In this document: one piece after another, positions 22,789 through 33,117 of the stretch
Layout: each line of letters opens with the position of its first letter
Numbering within the stretch: position 1 is the first letter of the stretch
From: Streptomyces sp. ICBB 8177
Lineage (GTDB): Bacteria > Actinomycetota > Actinomycetes > Streptomycetales > Streptomycetaceae
Direction of reading: 5' to 3'
Length of the DNA stretch: 64,000 nt
NCBI RefSeq assembly: GCF_003144095.1
Contig: NZ_NSKH01000003.1
Span: forward strand, 62,001 to 126,000
Translations under genes and position numbers: made by a program
Notes under the pieces: model-generated
The model's database searches: none
Seen by the model: the letters and a program-made list of their open reading frames with translations, nothing else
Told to the model about the DNA's origin: nothing

Positions 22789-23393
22789 CTGCCGACTCGG
22801 CGCGCCCCCGTTCGTTCCCTGGCCGGCCGTTCGCCGACCGACCTCGCTCGAAGTACGGGACGCGTTCGGTCCGCCCGACCGTCCCTGGCTGTCGTGCCGG
22901 TCCCGTTCGATCCGTTCAACCTGTTCCGTCTGTTCGACCCGCTCGACTCCGTTCGGATCGGTTCGGCGTCGTCTCCCCCTCCTCCTTCTGGTCGGAGCCC
23001 TCGTGGATCCGGCCCCGACGTACCGCGCCGCCGCCGGGCCCATGTCGCAGGGGCCCGGCGGCGCTCGCGTTCGGGGGTCGGCCCGGGCCGGCGGTGGTGG
23101 GAAAGGCGTCGCCGCTCGGCGCCGGTTGGGGGCTTGCGACCCGGCGCGGCCAGGGGCCTGGTTTACGCTGGACTGCGGTGTGACGCGGGCCACGTAAGAC
23201 CCGCGTAACGCCGACAGGGGGAGCGCGATGACCTAAGCGGTGGTACCGCCGAAGGAATACGGACGACATCCCCGTCGCTGTGTTGCCAGGCGGTTCCGCT
23301 CCTTACCGCCGGTCCATCCCCGCCGGCGGCCGGCGGCCCTTGCCGAGTGCAGGCGCGGTCGGAAGTCGTTCCCATCGTTCCGAGAGGTTGTTC
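22789..23393. other. hrdB promoter and leader region
   Basis: 605 bp with no gene. TTTACGCT at about 23162-23169 is a candidate -10 region for the main hrdB promoter. A short palindrome GCGGTGGTACCGC lies at 23237-23249 and GCGGG/CCCGC arms at 23187-23207. The long leader before a housekeeping sigma gene fits multi-promoter control, known for hrdB in Streptomyces. Confidence 0.5.
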
Positions 23394-24959
<1,566 letters not shown>

Positions 24960-26961: not shown

Positions 26962-27147
26962 GAGAGATGGAAACCGGGTCGTGGCGAAGCCGCCACCGCA
27001 CGCATCGGTACCCTCTCCTCGGCGAACTTCGGCACGCACGACCCGGACCCGCCAGCCGCCGACCCCCGGCCGACCCAGGCCGGACCCAGGACTGCCGCGA
27101 TGCACGAGACGCACCGCGCCGCACGAGATGTACGAGGAGCCGCCCGC

Positions 27148-29271
27148 GTGACCGCCGACACTTCAGCGCCGTCCACCGCCCTGCTGAGTGGCGCGGACCG
27201 CGACGGCTCCAACTACACCGCGCGGCACCTGCTCGTCCTGGAAGGCCTGGAGGCGGTCCGCAAGCGCCCCGGCATGTACATCGGCTCGACCGACAGTCGC
27301 GGCCTGATGCACTGCGTGTGGGAGATCATCGACAACGCGGTCGACGAGGCCCTCGGCGGCTACTGCGACCGCATCGAGGTGCTGCTGCACGACGACGGCT
27401 CGGTCGAGGTCCGCGACAACGGCCGCGGCATCCCGGTCGACGTGGAGCCCAAGACCGGGCTGTCCGGCGTCGAGGTCGTGATGACCAAGCTGCACGCGGG
27501 CGGGAAGTTCGGCGGCGGCTCCTACGCGGCCTCCGGCGGTCTGCACGGTGTGGGCGCCTCCGTGGTCAACGCGCTCTCCGCCCGCCTGGACGTCGAGGTC
27601 GACCGCGGCGGCCACACCCACGCGATCAGCTTCCGGCGAGGAGTGCCCGGGATCTTCACCGAGCAGGGGCCGGACGCGCCGTTCGATCCGGCGAGCGGGC
27701 TGCGCAAGGCCAAGAAGGTACCGAAGACGCGCAGCGGCACCCGGGTGCGTTTCTGGGCCGACCGGCAGATCTTCCTCAAGGACGCCAGGCTCTCCCTGGA
27801 GAACCTCCACCAGCGAGCCCGCCAGACCGCCTTCCTGGTGCCGGGGCTGACCATCCTCGTACGCGACGAGCGGGCGGCAGCGGGCGAGGAGGGCCCCGTC
27901 GAGGAGGTCTTCCACTACGACGGCGGCATCGGCGAGTTCTGCGAGTACCTCGCGCCGGACAAGCCGCTGAGCGACGTGGTGCGACTGCAGGGCGAGGGGA
28001 CGTTCAAGGAGACCGTGCCAGTACTGGACGAGCGCGGGCACATGACGCCGACCGAGGTCACCCGTGACCTCGGTGTCGACATCGCGCTGCGCTGGGGCGC
28101 GGGCTACGACACCACCCTGCGCTCCTTCGTGAACATCATCGCCACGCCCAAGGGCGGCACCCACGTGGCCGGGTTCGAGCGCTCTCTCACCCGCACCCTC
28201 AACGAGGTGCTGCGCTCCACCAAGCTGCTGCGCGTCGCCGAGGACGACATCGCCAAGGACGACGCGACCGAGGGACTGACGGCGGTCGTCACCGTACGGC
28301 TGGCGGAGCCGCAGTTCGAGGGCCAGACCAAGGAGGTCCTCGGGACCTCGGCCGCCTCCCGGATCGTGGCGAACGTGGTGGCCAAGGAACTGAAGGCGTT
28401 CCTGACCTCGTCCAAGCGCGACCAGAAGCAGCAGGCCCGCGCGGTCCTGGAGAAGGTGGTCGCCGCCGCGCGCACCCGCATCGCCGCCCGACAGCACAAG
28501 GAGGCTCAGCGCCGCAAGACGGCCCTGGAGTCGTCGTCGCTGCCGGCGAAGCTCGCCGACTGCCGCAGCGACGACGTGGACCGCACGGAGTTGTTCATCG
28601 TGGAGGGCGACTCGGCGCTGGGCACCGCGAAGGTGGCCCGCAACTCCGAGTTCCAGGCGCTGCTGCCGATCCGCGGCAAGATCCTCAACGTGCAGAAGTC
28701 GTCCATCTCGGACATGCTCAAGAACGCCGAGTGCGGCGCGATCATCCAGGTCATAGGAGCCGGGTCCGGCCGGACCTTCGACATCGACGCGGCGCGCTAC
28801 GGCAAGGTCATCTTCCTCGCCGACGCGGATGTGGACGGCGCCCACATCCGCACCCTGCTGCTCACGCTCTTCCAGCGATACATGCGGCCGATGGTCGAGG
28901 AGGGGCGGGTCTTCTCCGCGGTGCCGCCGCTGCACCGCATCGAGCTGACCAACCCCAAGAAGGGGCAGGACAAGTACATCTACACGTATTCCGACAACGA
29001 GCTGCGCCAGACGCTCCTGGACCTCCAGCGTCGCAACGTCCGCTACAAGGACAGCATCCAGCGCTACAAGGGTCTCGGCGAGATGGACGCCGACCAGCTC
29101 GCGGAGACCACGATGGACCCCAGGCACCGCACCCTGCGCCGGATCAACATCAGCGACCTGGAGGCGGCGGAGCGCGTCTTCGACCTGCTGATGGGCAACG
29201 AGGTCGCCCCACGCAAGGAGTTCATCACCAACGCGGCGGCCACGCTGGACAGGTCCCGCATCGACGCGTGA
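27148..29271 (+). CDS. parE: DNA topoisomerase IV subunit B (ParE)
   Basis: ATPase subunit of type IIA topoisomerase that decatenates daughter chromosomes. 707 aa from the GTG at 27148 (GAGGAG upstream). The GHKL ATPase has IIDNAVDEALGG near residue 65, RDNGRGIPVD and GLHGVGASVVNALS. The TOPRIM domain has EGDSALGTAK at about residue 486 and DADVDGAH at about 560, with the Asp pair and Glu for magnesium. C-terminal RYKGLGEMD follows. It is assigned as ParE rather than GyrB because parC lies 12 kb away and gyrB sits near oriC in Streptomyces. The hairpin at 29274-29303 ends the gene. Confidence 0.95.
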   Translation: MTADTSAPSTALLSGADRDGSNYTARHLLVLEGLEAVRKRPGMYIGSTDSRGLMHCVWEIIDNAVDEALGGYCDRIEVLLHDDGSVEVRDNGRGIPVDVEPKTGLSGVEVVMTKLHAGGKFGGGSYAASGGLHGVGASVVNALSARLDVEVDRGGHTHAISFRRGVPGIFTEQGPDAPFDPASGLRKAKKVPKTRSGTRVRFWADRQIFLKDARLSLENLHQRARQTAFLVPGLTILVRDERAAAGEEGPVEEVFHYDGGIGEFCEYLAPDKPLSDVVRLQGEGTFKETVPVLDERGHMTPTEVTRDLGVDIALRWGAGYDTTLRSFVNIIATPKGGTHVAGFERSLTRTLNEVLRSTKLLRVAEDDIAKDDATEGLTAVVTVRLAEPQFEGQTKEVLGTSAASRIVANVVAKELKAFLTSSKRDQKQQARAVLEKVVAAARTRIAARQHKEAQRRKTALESSSLPAKLADCRSDDVDRTELFIVEGDSALGTAKVARNSEFQALLPIRGKILNVQKSSISDMLKNAECGAIIQVIGAGSGRTFDIDAARYGKVIFLADADVDGAHIRTLLLTLFQRYMRPMVEEGRVFSAVPPLHRIELTNPKKGQDKYIYTYSDNELRQTLLDLQRRNVRYKDSIQRYKGLGEMDADQLAETTMDPRHRTLRRINISDLEAAERVFDLLMGNEVAPRKEFITNAAATLDRSRIDA

Positions 29272-29273
29272 GA

Positions 29274-29303
29274 TCCGGGGGCCGGCGGAAGCCGGACCCC
29301 GGA
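29274..29303 (+). terminator. parE terminator hairpin
   Basis: TCCGGGGGCCGG pairs with CCGGACCCCGGA at 11 of 12 positions across a 6-nt loop, immediately after the stop. Confidence 0.75.
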
Positions 29304-29663
29304 GCGGGTGGCCGGGGGTGGGGCGCCGGCTGCGCGGTGAGGCGCTGCGAGGCAAGGGGGCGCACGGGCCTGCCTGTGGACGTGGGCGTGGGCATGCCCG
29401 TGGACGTGTTCAGGGACGTAGGCGGCGCGAGCCGGTGCACGCTGAAGATCTCGCGCCTGCTCTGGCCTGGGCTGTTGCCGTCGGCGGAGTGAGCGGGTTC
29501 CGGCCCGCCCTCGCACCCCTACAGCCACAGTGACCGCCGCCCGCGCCGGCCCTCCCGCCCGGCGCTGAACGACCACGCGACGGGAACGCCCCCGCGATCC
29601 GACGGCCGCCGCCCCTCCGCCATCGACCACCCGCGCCTCCGGCCGTCGATGAGCCGCACCGCC

Positions 29664-29728
29664 CGTCGCCGAACACCGCCCCGTTGCCCGTCGCCGAACA
29701 CCGCCCCGTCGCCGGTCGCCGAACACCG
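29664..29728. repeat. 25-bp tandem repeat, three copies
   Basis: CGTCGCCGAACACCG (second and third copies with one or two changes) starts at 29664, 29689 and 29714, exactly 25 bp apart, with related CCCCGT spacers. Confidence 0.8.
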
Positions 29729-29780
29729 ACCACCGGCCGCCCCCGCGCCTAACCGCGCCACCTCGCGCCTTACTCAGGAG

Positions 29781-29828
29781 GCTTCTCCACCCCAGGGTGG
29801 AGAAGCATCTCCACCCGAAGCTCCACCC
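29781..29828. promoter_or_regulatory. Cluster of four CTCCACCC half-sites
   Basis: A 26-bp near-perfect palindrome (12-bp arms beginning GCTTCTCCACCC, 2-nt centre) at 29781-29806 is followed by direct copies of CTCCACCC at 29809-29816 and 29821-29828, 12 bp apart. It lies 146 nt ahead of the membrane-protein gene, and the palindrome could be an operator for the NarL-type regulator encoded in this operon. A terminator role is possible but does not explain the extra half-sites. Confidence 0.6.
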
Positions 29829-29974
29829 TGGCGCCGATCCGGACGGGGGCTGGCCCTCGTAGCTTCGATTTCAGCAGCACGGCACGGCCCCTGTTCCAAG
29901 CGCCCCCGATTCAGCGGGCCTTGATCAGCGGGCCGTGATCCAGCGGTCTTCTTCGCAGCTCGGAGGCACTCCTC

Positions 29975-30463
29975 ATGTCCGGTCTGGCCAACATCGTCGT
30001 GATCGTGGCGGTCGTCGCCCTGGTGATCGTGCGCCAGAGCCGGCCCCGCCGCGTCAAGGACGGCCGAAGCTGGTGGATCCTCCCGGCCGTGCTGCTCTAT
30101 CTGGCACTGCGGGAGCACGGGATCGTCGACGCCCACCACCAGGCGGTCTCGGTGGGGCTGCTCGCCGGAGAGCTGCTGATAGGCGCGGGCATGGGTGTCG
30201 TCTGGGCGTTCACCAGCCGCATATGGCGTGACCAGGACGGCGTGGTGTGGACGAAGGGCACCAAGGCCACGGCCGCCGCCTGGGTCGGGGGCATCGCGTT
30301 GCGCATCGGTCTCGCGGCCGTCGGCGCGATGATGGGGGTGCACCAGGGCGAGGGAGCGACCATGCTCGCTCTGGCGGGGACGTTGCTGATACGCACCGGG
30401 CTGGTCGTCTGGCGGGCGCGTGAGCTGGAGCCGGTCGGGTTCGGTGCGACGGCCGCACCGTGA
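29975..30463 (+). CDS. CcdC/DUF1453-like membrane protein
   Basis: 162 aa with about four or five transmembrane helices (ANIVVIVAVVALVIV; WWILPAVLLYLAL; SVGLLAGELLIGAGMGVVW; AWVGGIALRIGLAAVG; LALAGTLLIRTGLVVW). The RxVKDGRSWW and RxWRDQDGVVWTKGT loops are typical of the small integral-membrane family annotated CcdC-like/DUF1453. GGAG precedes the ATG. Its stop overlaps the kinase start by 4 nt, so it is translated with the kinase and may be an accessory sensor component. Function unknown. Confidence 0.83.
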   Translation: MSGLANIVVIVAVVALVIVRQSRPRRVKDGRSWWILPAVLLYLALREHGIVDAHHQAVSVGLLAGELLIGAGMGVVWAFTSRIWRDQDGVVWTKGTKATAAAWVGGIALRIGLAAVGAMMGVHQGEGATMLALAGTLLIRTGLVVWRARELEPVGFGATAAP

Positions 30464-31650
30464 CGATGGTCGGAGCGAAGGGTGCCTACGTGGGGCTGAC
30501 CTTCTGGACGCAGTGGCCTTCGCGAGAGGCGCTGGCGAAGCAGGGCCGCACCGCGACGCAGCGCGGCCTGGCCTGGCTGATGCGGCTGGCGGTGCTGGCG
30601 GCGCTCGTGTGGGACGCCGTCGCCAACCGTCAGACGGCGGGTACGCGGTCGATGCTGACGCTGGTCGTCGCCGTGCTCCTCACCGGAGTCATCGTCTACG
30701 GGTTGATCCACTACACGCTGGGCCATCGACTCTGGCAGTCGGTCGCCATGATGGCGCTGCTCATCGGCGCCGCCTATATGGCGTGGTCGGCCCAGGCGGA
30801 GGTCGTGGCGACGGTGCTGTGGTGCGGTTGCGCGGTGATGGCGATCGAGCGGTTGCCCCTGGCCGCGGCCGCGCTGGTCGCGACGGGCGCCCTCGGCTCC
30901 TACGTGACCGTCGGCAGCACGGACAGCGGGCTCAACAAGGCGCTGTCCGTCGTGGGGATCTGCCTGGTCGGATACGTGATGAGGCTGGACGCGGAGGCGC
31001 GGGGCAACACCCAGCGGATGCTGGCGCAGGAGCGGGCGGCGCGGGCCGCTGAGGCGGAATCGGCGGCGCTGCGCGAACGTGGACGGATCGCGCGGGAGAT
31101 CCACGACGTGCTGGCGCACAGCCTGTCCGCGCAGATGGTGCACCTGGAGGCCGCCCGGCTGCTGATCGAGCGGGGCGGGGAGCGTGAGGAGGTACTCGAC
31201 CGGGTGGTCGCGGCCCGCCGGATGGCACGGCAGGGGCTGGCCGAGACGCGGCAGGCGCTGTCCGCCCTGCGAGGGGAGATGACGCCGGCGGAGGAGTTCC
31301 TGCGCGAGTTGGTGGAGTCCGAGGGGGCGCGGCTGCGTATCGACGGAGAGCGCAGGGAGCTGCCCGCCGAGGCCGGGCTCGCGGTGCGGCGGGTGGCGCA
31401 GGAGGCGATGACCAACGCGCGCAAGCACGCCCCGGGGGCGATGGTGGCGGTGCGTCTCGACTATCAGCCGGGGGAGGTGGAACTGGAGGTGAGGGACTTC
31501 GGCGGTCAGCCTGTGGATAACGGACTGAGTGCCTCTGGAGCGGGTTACGGTCTGCTCGGGATGCGTGAACGCGCCGAGTTGCTCGGCGGGACGCTGGAGG
31601 CGGGACCGGCCGAGGAGGGGTTCGTGGTGCGTCTGCGGGTGCCGGCGTAA
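30460..31650 (+). CDS. Sensor histidine kinase, NarL/DesK type (HisKA_3)
   Basis: 396 aa, starting at the GTG that overlaps the previous stop (GTGA). About six membrane helices occupy residues 35-175 and no large extracytoplasmic domain is present, so sensing is probably in the membrane. The dimerisation helix has the phosphorylated His in RGRIAREIHDVLAHSLSAQ (about residue 218). The ATPase domain has RRVAQEAMTNARKHA, VRDFGG (where D is followed by FGG) and GYGLLGMRERAELLGG. It pairs with the next gene; the stop TAA overlaps its ATG. Confidence 0.93.
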   Translation: MTMVGAKGAYVGLTFWTQWPSREALAKQGRTATQRGLAWLMRLAVLAALVWDAVANRQTAGTRSMLTLVVAVLLTGVIVYGLIHYTLGHRLWQSVAMMALLIGAAYMAWSAQAEVVATVLWCGCAVMAIERLPLAAAALVATGALGSYVTVGSTDSGLNKALSVVGICLVGYVMRLDAEARGNTQRMLAQERAARAAEAESAALRERGRIAREIHDVLAHSLSAQMVHLEAARLLIERGGEREEVLDRVVAARRMARQGLAETRQALSALRGEMTPAEEFLRELVESEGARLRIDGERRELPAEAGLAVRRVAQEAMTNARKHAPGAMVAVRLDYQPGEVELEVRDFGGQPVDNGLSASGAGYGLLGMRERAELLGGTLEAGPAEEGFVVRLRVPA

Positions 31651-32531
31651 TGACCGGACGTGTCGTACGGGTGGTGGTGGCGGACGACCAGACGGTGGTC
31701 CGCGAGGGGATCGTGACGCTGCTGGGGCTGCTGCCCGGGCTGGACGTGGTCGGCGCGGCGGGTGACGGGGAGGAGGCGGTGCGGCTGGTGGCGGAGACGT
31801 CGCCGGACGTGGTGTTGATGGACCTGCGGATGCCCAGGTGCGACGGGGCGGAGGCGACCCGGCGGATTCGCAGGGACCACCCAGGGACGCAGGTGGTGGT
31901 GCTGACGACGTTCGGCGACGACGACTCGCTCTTCCCGGCGTTGCAGGCGGGGGCGCGCGGCTATCTGACGAAGGACGCAGGCAGCGAGGAGATCCTGCGG
32001 GCGATCGAAGACGTGGTGGCCGGGCAGGCGGGGTTGTCGCCGCAGGTGCAGCGGCGGTTGCTGGAGCGGTTGTCGCAGCAGGGGGCGTCTTTCGGCACCG
32101 CGGCGTCCGTTGACCCGGGAGGTGGCGGCCGGGCCGGGGCCTCGATCCGTTCCGGGGATGAGGGCGAGCCCGCGGCGCTTCGGCGCGATGGCCTCGGCGC
32201 CGCGAGTGAAGCCGACCGCGCCGAGAGCGCTGATCGCGTCGGTGTGGATCGCCACGGCGCCGATGCCGAGCCAGGGGCCGAGCAGCAGCCGCAGGCCGGT
32301 ACAACGGACTTGCCGGACGGGCTGACCGCGCGGGAGGCCGAGGTGCTGGGACTGGTGGCGGACGGGCTGTCCAACGCGGAGATCGCGACGCGGCTCTTCG
32401 TCAGCCACGCCACGGTCAAGACGCACATCAACAACCTGTTCGCGAAGACCGGGGTGCGGGACCGGGCACAGGCCGTGCGGTACGCGTACCTGCACGGGAT
32501 CAACCCGGCGCGCGGCAGGGGCGGGGAGTGA
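31650..32531 (+). CDS. LuxR/NarL-family response regulator with a long interdomain linker
   Basis: 293 aa. The receiver spans residues 1-125 with VVVADDQTVVREG, phosphoacceptor Asp in VVLMDLRMP (about residue 56), VVVLTTFGD and GYLTKDAG. The LuxR helix-turn-helix is from about residue 223 (LTAREAEVLGLVADGLSNAEIA, FVSHATVKTHINNLFAKTGV). Such proteins normally have about 15-25 residues between the domains; here about 85 acidic, low-complexity residues (137-222) are inserted. It should bind operators such as the half-site cluster before the operon. Translationally coupled to the kinase. Confidence 0.92.
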   Translation: MTGRVVRVVVADDQTVVREGIVTLLGLLPGLDVVGAAGDGEEAVRLVAETSPDVVLMDLRMPRCDGAEATRRIRRDHPGTQVVVLTTFGDDDSLFPALQAGARGYLTKDAGSEEILRAIEDVVAGQAGLSPQVQRRLLERLSQQGASFGTAASVDPGGGGRAGASIRSGDEGEPAALRRDGLGAASEADRAESADRVGVDRHGADAEPGAEQQPQAGTTDLPDGLTAREAEVLGLVADGLSNAEIATRLFVSHATVKTHINNLFAKTGVRDRAQAVRYAYLHGINPARGRGGE

Positions 32532-32694: not shown

Positions 32695-33117
32695 GTGGAC
32701 GTTCACGACGGCGCGCAGGGGACCCGGCTCGGGGTGGAGGACCCCTGGGCGGCGGCTCTCGACGCCGGTCCGTGGCAGGAGCCGCCACGTCCGGAGCCGC
32801 CGGAGCGTACCGGGGTCTACCAGGAGGTGCAGGCGGGGGAGGAGTTCCGGGAGGTGCGCAGGCGGTACCGGCGGTTCGCGTTCCCGGCGTCGGCGGCGTT
32901 CTTCGTCTGGTACCTGGCGTACCTGCTGACGGCCACCATGGCGCCGGGGCTGATGGCCCGGCGGGTGGACGGCGCGGTCAACGTGGCGATGGTGGCGGGG
33001 CTGGCGCAGTTCGGCACGACGTTCCTGCTGACGTGGGCGTACGCGCGGCACGCCCGGTTGCGGCGGGACCGGGCGGCGTTGGAGCTGCGGTGGGACACCC
33101 AGGAGCGGGTCCGGTGA
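32695..33117 (+). CDS. DUF485 membrane protein (acetate-symporter partner, YjcH-like)
   Basis: 140 aa from a GTG with AAGGAG 6 nt upstream. Residues 1-55 are a Pro/Glu-rich cytoplasmic start. Two transmembrane helices (FAFPASAAFFVWYLAYLLTA and ALAQFGTTFLLTWAYARH-like VAGLAQFGTTFLLTWAYA) define DUF485. In E. coli yjcH precedes actP, and the same order holds here. The stop overlaps the symporter GTG by 4 nt, giving tight coupling. Confidence 0.88.
   Translation: MDVHDGAQGTRLGVEDPWAAALDAGPWQEPPRPEPPERTGVYQEVQAGEEFREVRRRYRRFAFPASAAFFVWYLAYLLTATMAPGLMARRVDGAVNVAMVAGLAQFGTTFLLTWAYARHARLRRDRAALELRWDTQERVR

Follow-up and report, generated by a model that had tools for sequence, protein, structure and literature searches.

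A cluster of four heptamers in Streptomyces sp. ICBB 8177 lies ahead of an operon that encodes a CcdC-like membrane protein, a sensor kinase, and a NarL-type response regulator. We think that this site is very probably the autoregulatory operator of that operon. An earlier note on this sequence had proposed an operator as well, and that reading is strongly supported by conservation, by the geometry of the promoter, by helical phasing, and by recurrence at paralogous operons. Comparing sequences shows that the site exists, that it is coupled to the operon and keeps a constant register to the -10 box, and that it recurs at paralogous operons. (By the window, we mean the whole stretch of 64,000 nucleotides that was analysed.)

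The site and the operon behind it

The earlier note had described a near-perfect palindrome of 26 bp, which was an understatement: both of the 12-bp arms are perfect (Table 1). Viewed as heptamers, the site is a 7-2-7 inverted repeat (TCCACCC-CA-GGGTGGA, at 29786-29801) plus two direct copies of TCCACCC. The inverted heptamers are separated by 2 bp, as in NarL-type sites. The third half-site is everted relative to the right arm of the palindrome, with N8 between the heptamers. The two direct half-sites are 12 bp apart, and the distance from the start of the first half-site to the start of the third is 24 bp. These four heptamers (29786-29828) are the sole run of TCCACCC or TCAACCC, on either strand and with a spacing of under 45 nt, in the entire window. 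Across the 6.33-Mb genome (27 contigs), the core TCTCCACCCNNGGGTGGAGA has a single match with no mismatches. If up to three mismatches are allowed, it is found at 9 places, versus 2 for a reversed-pattern control.

Table 1. Features of the site and of the genes around it (positions are those of the window).
Feature	Position	Strand	Remarks
Type II topoisomerase B subunit (parE position)	27100-29271		Upstream of the site; NCBIfam gyrase B/ParE-type matches
Perfect palindrome	29781..29806	.	GCTTCTCCACCC-CA-GGGTGGAGAAGC; arms of 12 bp, 2-bp centre CA
Third half-site CTCCACCC, direct	29809..29816	+	Heptamer starts 50 nt before the -10 box
Fourth half-site CTCCACCC, direct	29821..29828	+	Heptamer starts exactly 38 nt before the -10 box
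Conserved box GCCGATC	29833..29839	+	11 nt after the last heptamer, at the upstream edge of the -35 region
Predicted -10 box TAGCTT (TANNNT)	29860..29865	+	Found by an unbiased scan
CcdC-like (DUF1453-like) membrane protein	29975..30463	+	First gene of the operon; Pfam DUF1453, 19.1 bits; five predicted helices
Sensor histidine kinase (HisKA_3, HATPase_c)	30460..31650	+	Pfam
NarL/LuxR-type response regulator (Response_reg, GerE)	31650..32531	+	Pfam; proposed binder

The site is located in the promoter of the operon that contains the regulator gene, with 146 nt between the fourth half-site and the first gene, and the 70 orthologous upstream regions described below are alike in this location. 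The regulator gene is indeed downstream in the same operon, as the earlier note had said; it starts 1.8 kb from the site. It has receiver and GerE domains and adjoins a HisKA_3 kinase, all above the Pfam cut-offs, which makes the pair a two-component system of the NarL/LuxR type. Like CcdC/DUF1453 proteins (PF07301), the product of the first gene is a small membrane protein, but it falls below the gathering cut-off for PF07301 (19.1 versus 24.6 bits), and searches of NCBIfam and Pfam gave it no confident name. Its predicted structure has five helices (mean pLDDT of 86.4) and no significant match in PDB (the best E value was 0.48). PF07301 matches 17 of 70 members of this family at E ≤ 0.01.

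Another gene upstream of the site (23280-24959) is presumably hrdB, judging from its sequence. After the regulator come a DUF485 gene (32695-33117) and then a permease-like frame; the search of the window found no heptamer cluster ahead of the DUF485 gene. In Streptomyces coelicolor, SCO5822 is given as parE (PMC3905888), and two loci after parE, a kinase is again followed by a NarL-type regulator. The table of a 2022 review lists this pair, SCO5824/SCO5825, as a classic kinase and NarL regulator that has no name (PMC9739842). We take this pair to be the probable counterpart of our system, from the synteny of the locus numbers.

A simple promoter scan at the site in the window did not find a consensus promoter of the sigma-70 type. 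The promoter has a good -10 box and a poor -35. Between them and the last heptamer is the conserved box, which in the information profile of the relatives reads TCCGATC or TTGATCC and which is retained in seven rows from Streptosporangiales. This box is possibly a degenerate half-site.

Conservation and spacing among relatives

The core pattern is present in 69 of 297 genomes from the family, and the reversed-pattern control is present in 0 of the 297. For a set of upstream regions, we took 80 of the 88 CcdC matches, plus the window's own. (The matches left out were G015, G044, G048, G056, G083, G107, and G113:C22, and three of the rows that were taken, L140-L142, are without a CcdC match.) Seventy orthologous rows, which span 12 genera, were analysed, and every one of them has the palindrome core, with 15-18 of 18 core bases. 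The best matches in 20 shuffles of each 500-nt upstream region had just 11-15. The palindrome is absent from six other rows (11-12 of 18 core bases), namely five distant paralogues of CcdC (L133-L137) and L143. Two more rows with paralogues, L138 and L139, have 17 of 18 bases and were excluded from the statistics for the 70 rows. Also, G048 has a CcdC-like orthologue, yet nothing in it matches the palindrome, even in a relaxed form.

The palindrome is also tied to the presence of the operon's first gene. The exact palindrome is found in 28 of 78 ccdC-positive genomes but in just 1 of 43 ccdC-negative genomes (Fisher p = 1e-5). A CcdC-like match adjoins the site at 32 of the first 34 loci (L001-L034, including the window as L002 and L004). 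The others are L006 and L034, and a longer stretch at L034 (L191) reveals a CcdC-like paralogue directly behind the site. In the ccdC-negative exception, G062, the palindrome (L193, 3606-3621) is near or inside a regulator-like stretch upstream of DUF485. G046 has a palindrome in the same kind of place (L192, 3704-3719), and a CcdC-like gene was not detected there. In both of these genomes, the operon seems to have been eroded or rearranged.

With one genome scanned per species, at least 118 exact stretches were found. Among the matches listed, 85 of 118 have a tandem CcdC-like gene that starts 56-304 nt downstream. Of the 33 listed matches that do not, some come from the ends of contigs or from unrelated phyla, and several have kinase or regulator matches close by. 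The hosts among the matches listed include Streptosporangium, Microtetraspora, Nonomuraea, Sphaerisporangium, Actinoplanes, Amycolatopsis, Phycicoccus, and Arthrobacter, and the listed site from Streptantibioticus parmotrematis Ptm05 is identical to ours.

The elements have the same order in the 70 orthologous rows: the palindrome, one or two TCCACCC or TCAACCC heptamers, a TCCGATC or TTGATCC box, and then TCCGTAGCKTCG. (The T, A, and T of the -10 box are invariant in these rows by construction of the anchor; the flanking TCCG..CG is conserved independently.) A scan that chose the -10 box without considering the half-sites gave a distance for 61 of the 70 rows. From the start of a half-site to the TANNNT, this distance is 38 nt in 52 rows, 50 nt in 8 rows, and 39 nt in 1 row. 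The centre of the palindrome is 55 nt (10 rows), 65-67 nt (24 rows), or 75-78 nt (35 rows) from the -10 box, with one outlier at 63 nt (n = 70); for these classes, a heptamer at -38 was one criterion in choosing the -10 box. Distances of 55, 65-67, and 75-78 nt imply that the spacing changes in whole helical turns. At a period of 10.5 bp, the phase concentration across all rows is 0.91. It is 0.85 over 25 unique pairs of genus and distance, which was matched by 0 of 10,000 random draws in a comparison that ignores phylogeny. The spacing of 12 bp between half-sites that the earlier note had reported is right for the window, but it does not carry over to the relatives, whose arrays step in helical turns (10-12 bp).

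The seven rows from Streptosporangiales retain this arrangement: the -10 box is 56-57 nt from the centre of the palindrome, and after the half-site comes a CCGATCC box. The heptamer that lies 38-39 nt ahead of the -10 box is intact in 5 of these rows and degenerate in 2. In L265, L296, L309, L317, and L321, the start codon is about 10-20 nt after the -10 box, so these five Streptosporangiales transcripts would have no leader, or almost none, in contrast to those of Streptomycetaceae. The row from Arthrobacter has a TANNNT at 63 nt, and the rows from Amycolatopsis, Actinoplanes, and Phycicoccus have none at the corresponding position.

Other clusters and their regulators in the same genome

The earlier note had suggested a genome-wide search for pairs of half-sites. 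Searching for exact heptamers only, we found 23 direct pairs (versus 5 for the reversed control), 9 everted pairs (versus 1), and 9 convergent pairs (versus 1). Six of the 9 everted pairs in the genome have exactly N8 between the heptamers. Clusters lie ahead of five operons that encode a membrane protein, a kinase, and a NarL-type regulator: the operon in the window (on C22), C18:18.8k, C24:231.8k, C11:237.8k, and C11:240.8k. BLAST links the five paralogous membrane proteins (43% over 157 amino acids for C18 versus C11:240.8k; the other links are weak). A CcdC-like profile from 70 proteins has three matches in the genome, and the site is present at all three of them; the two C11 proteins are beyond the reach of this profile. 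For the operon on C24, the heptamer is 49 nt from a TANNNT. The operons at C18, C11:237.8k, and C11:240.8k have no TANNNT at 38 nt. The two operons on C11 are in tandem (C11:237.8-243.8k, L225), and each has its own cluster of heptamers.

Two other clusters are ahead of different kinds of genes. (The names that follow are our reading of the sequences and not profile results.) At C11:455.05-455.13k (L185/L146), four heptamers lie about 85-100 nt upstream of the frame for an ICMT-like (isoprenylcysteine-carboxyl-methyltransferase-type) membrane protein, which is a candidate member of the regulon. At C11:328.6k (L226/L201), an array of heptamers is followed by a GNAT-like frame and then by an ABC-transporter frame. 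Here the last heptamer is followed at 39 nt by a TANNNT, and an ATG is almost at the expected start, so the transcript looks leaderless.

We dropped two places from the regulon. The everted site at C22:596.9k is in a long inverted repeat between converging frames (argS-like and TetR-like, again from our reading of the sequences). This repeat (L227, about 2418-2462) has GGGTGGA and TCCACCC in its arms and looks like a terminator, which illustrates that the heptamer by itself does not make an operator. The heptamer pairs at C11:138.7k are within a reading frame that encodes a repetitive protein sequence.

The recognition helix of the regulator in the window is SHATVKTHINNLF, and INN are the three residues after the recognition-helix histidine in 65 of 66 orthologous rows. 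The recognition helices of the five paralogous regulators are slightly different. We take one residue to be the equivalent of K192 in NarL. It is asparagine in 4 of the 5 paralogues versus 2 of 25 other regulators in the genome (Fisher p = 0.0026). L143, the paralogue that lacks the palindrome, has INR in a related helix, and its two TCAACCC heptamers are 11 bp apart. We also built a tree of NarL-type regulators. (Of 45 GerE matches in the genome, 30 loci were read, 27 had a frame, and the 20 with a receiver domain were used.) The regulators from four of the five site-bearing operons group together (support 87/87). The fifth is nearby, and all five form a single group in 6% of bootstrap trees; they may nevertheless have a single origin.

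What the site may do

We propose that a dimer of the (phosphorylated) regulator would bind the 7-2-7 palindrome. More protomers of the same regulator would then occupy the direct heptamers downstream, lined up along one face of the helix as far as the -35 region. The bound protomers would recruit RNA polymerase to a promoter whose -10 box is good but whose -35 is not, which would give positive autoregulation. We infer the identity of the binder, cooperative and phosphorylation-dependent binding, and activation from the sequences. The cognate regulator is the candidate binder, with indirect support, because NarL favours 7-2-7 inverted heptamers (PMC4549865), because the exact palindrome tends to occur together with the operon (28/78 versus 1/43), and because four of the five site-associated regulators group together (87/87).

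Could another protein bind the operator? The five operons have a heptamer in common, so one regulator could serve them all, and their recognition helices do differ slightly. But the site and the operon travel together across families and autoregulation is the simplest account of this, so we consider binding by a paralogous regulator or by an unrelated factor, instead of the cognate regulator, to be quite improbable. Another question is the sign of the regulation. NarL itself is described as repressing some promoters, such as frdA (PMC4549865), and the regulator might likewise repress its own operon. Every site is upstream of the -10 box, however, and ends beside the -35 region, and a poor -35 with a strict register is what we would expect of an activator-dependent promoter. 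Negative autoregulation is unlikely here.

The earlier note had also allowed that the site might be only a terminator. If so, it would be merely the hairpin of a parE terminator, and the direct repeats would be accidental. The RNA hairpin is certainly strong: its energy is -37.9 kcal/mol in the window (z = -2.8, with 2 of 200 shuffles as good) and -54.2 kcal/mol in L117 (z = -6.5). In many relatives, complementary bases that are specific to the lineage lengthen the arms, with 4.91 of 8 outer pairs (n = 70), as compared to 3.80 after swapping arms within a genus and 2.98 after swapping between genera. There are 7-8 outer pairs in 26 of the 70 rows. The parE stop was located in 55 rows, and in 44 of these it is less than 80 nt from the palindrome. 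On the other hand, arm extension is not significantly correlated with the distance from parE (Spearman -0.22, p = 0.11), with means of 5.98 outer pairs in the near-parE rows and 4.18 in the far rows. The window has no T-run or terminator-like site in 29250-30000, and 512 nt separate its palindrome from the parE stop, so we rejected the terminator-only reading there. Furthermore, no stem accounts for the direct heptamers, yet they are conserved in strict register to the -10 box, and identical heptamers occur at paralogous operons away from parE. Overall, it is highly improbable that the site is just a terminator, although for the relatives the idea may be partly true. Part of the conservation of the palindrome could reflect RNA structure, as many relatives have a longer hairpin behind parE. 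An element that serves both as the operator of the operon and as the terminator of parE, in lineages with extended arms near the parE stop, is a real possibility, if short of an even one: the extended complementary arms are 16-80 nt behind parE in many rows, but no T-tract was seen among the rows listed, the relationship of arm length to parE distance is not significant, and the window does not fit this description.

We return to the reading as an autoregulatory operator. The observations that count against it are that G048 lacks the palindrome, that three of the genome's own operons lack a TANNNT at 38 nt, that the five regulators are not one clade in the tree, that L133-L137 lack the site, and that RNA structure could account for part of the palindrome's conservation.

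As described in PMC4549865, the NarL operators of E. coli are similar to this site in having inverted heptamers 2 bp apart, single heptamers nearby, and a regulator with a NarL-type output domain. They differ in that here the heptamer is TCCACCC, the direct heptamers are in whole-turn register to the -10 box, and the site is ahead of the regulator's own operon. CepRS is also a two-component regulator of transcription, but the repeat proposed for CepR is of the GGCGGT type (PMC6661058). SatKR is another such regulator, and no comparable site is described in the parts of PMC8594442 that we consulted. In the open-licence literature, CTCCACCC was not found described as the binding site of a CcdC-like/kinase/NarL system; a match to it in a table of sigma-E promoters (PMC6767563) is a chance string. 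The element is very probably of an ordinary kind, an autoregulatory NarL-type operator, whose code we did not find described. The comparative evidence for it is unusually clean, and its recurrence at paralogous systems of the same cell was unexpected. More speculatively, the five operons and the ICMT-like and GNAT-like genes might cross-regulate each other through a common heptamer code, with a register that evolves by whole turns and with some hairpins that terminate parE; we consider this combination rather unlikely.

A signalling system that adjoins parE, and that is widely conserved in filamentous actinobacteria but unstudied, thus gains a predicted binding code, a predicted promoter, and a candidate regulon. 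The discrete spacing classes, in steps of helical turns across the operons of 70 genomes, are a natural experiment on how NarL-type regulators assemble cooperatively. And the fact that five paralogous operons share one code makes cross-talk among signalling systems a concrete question.
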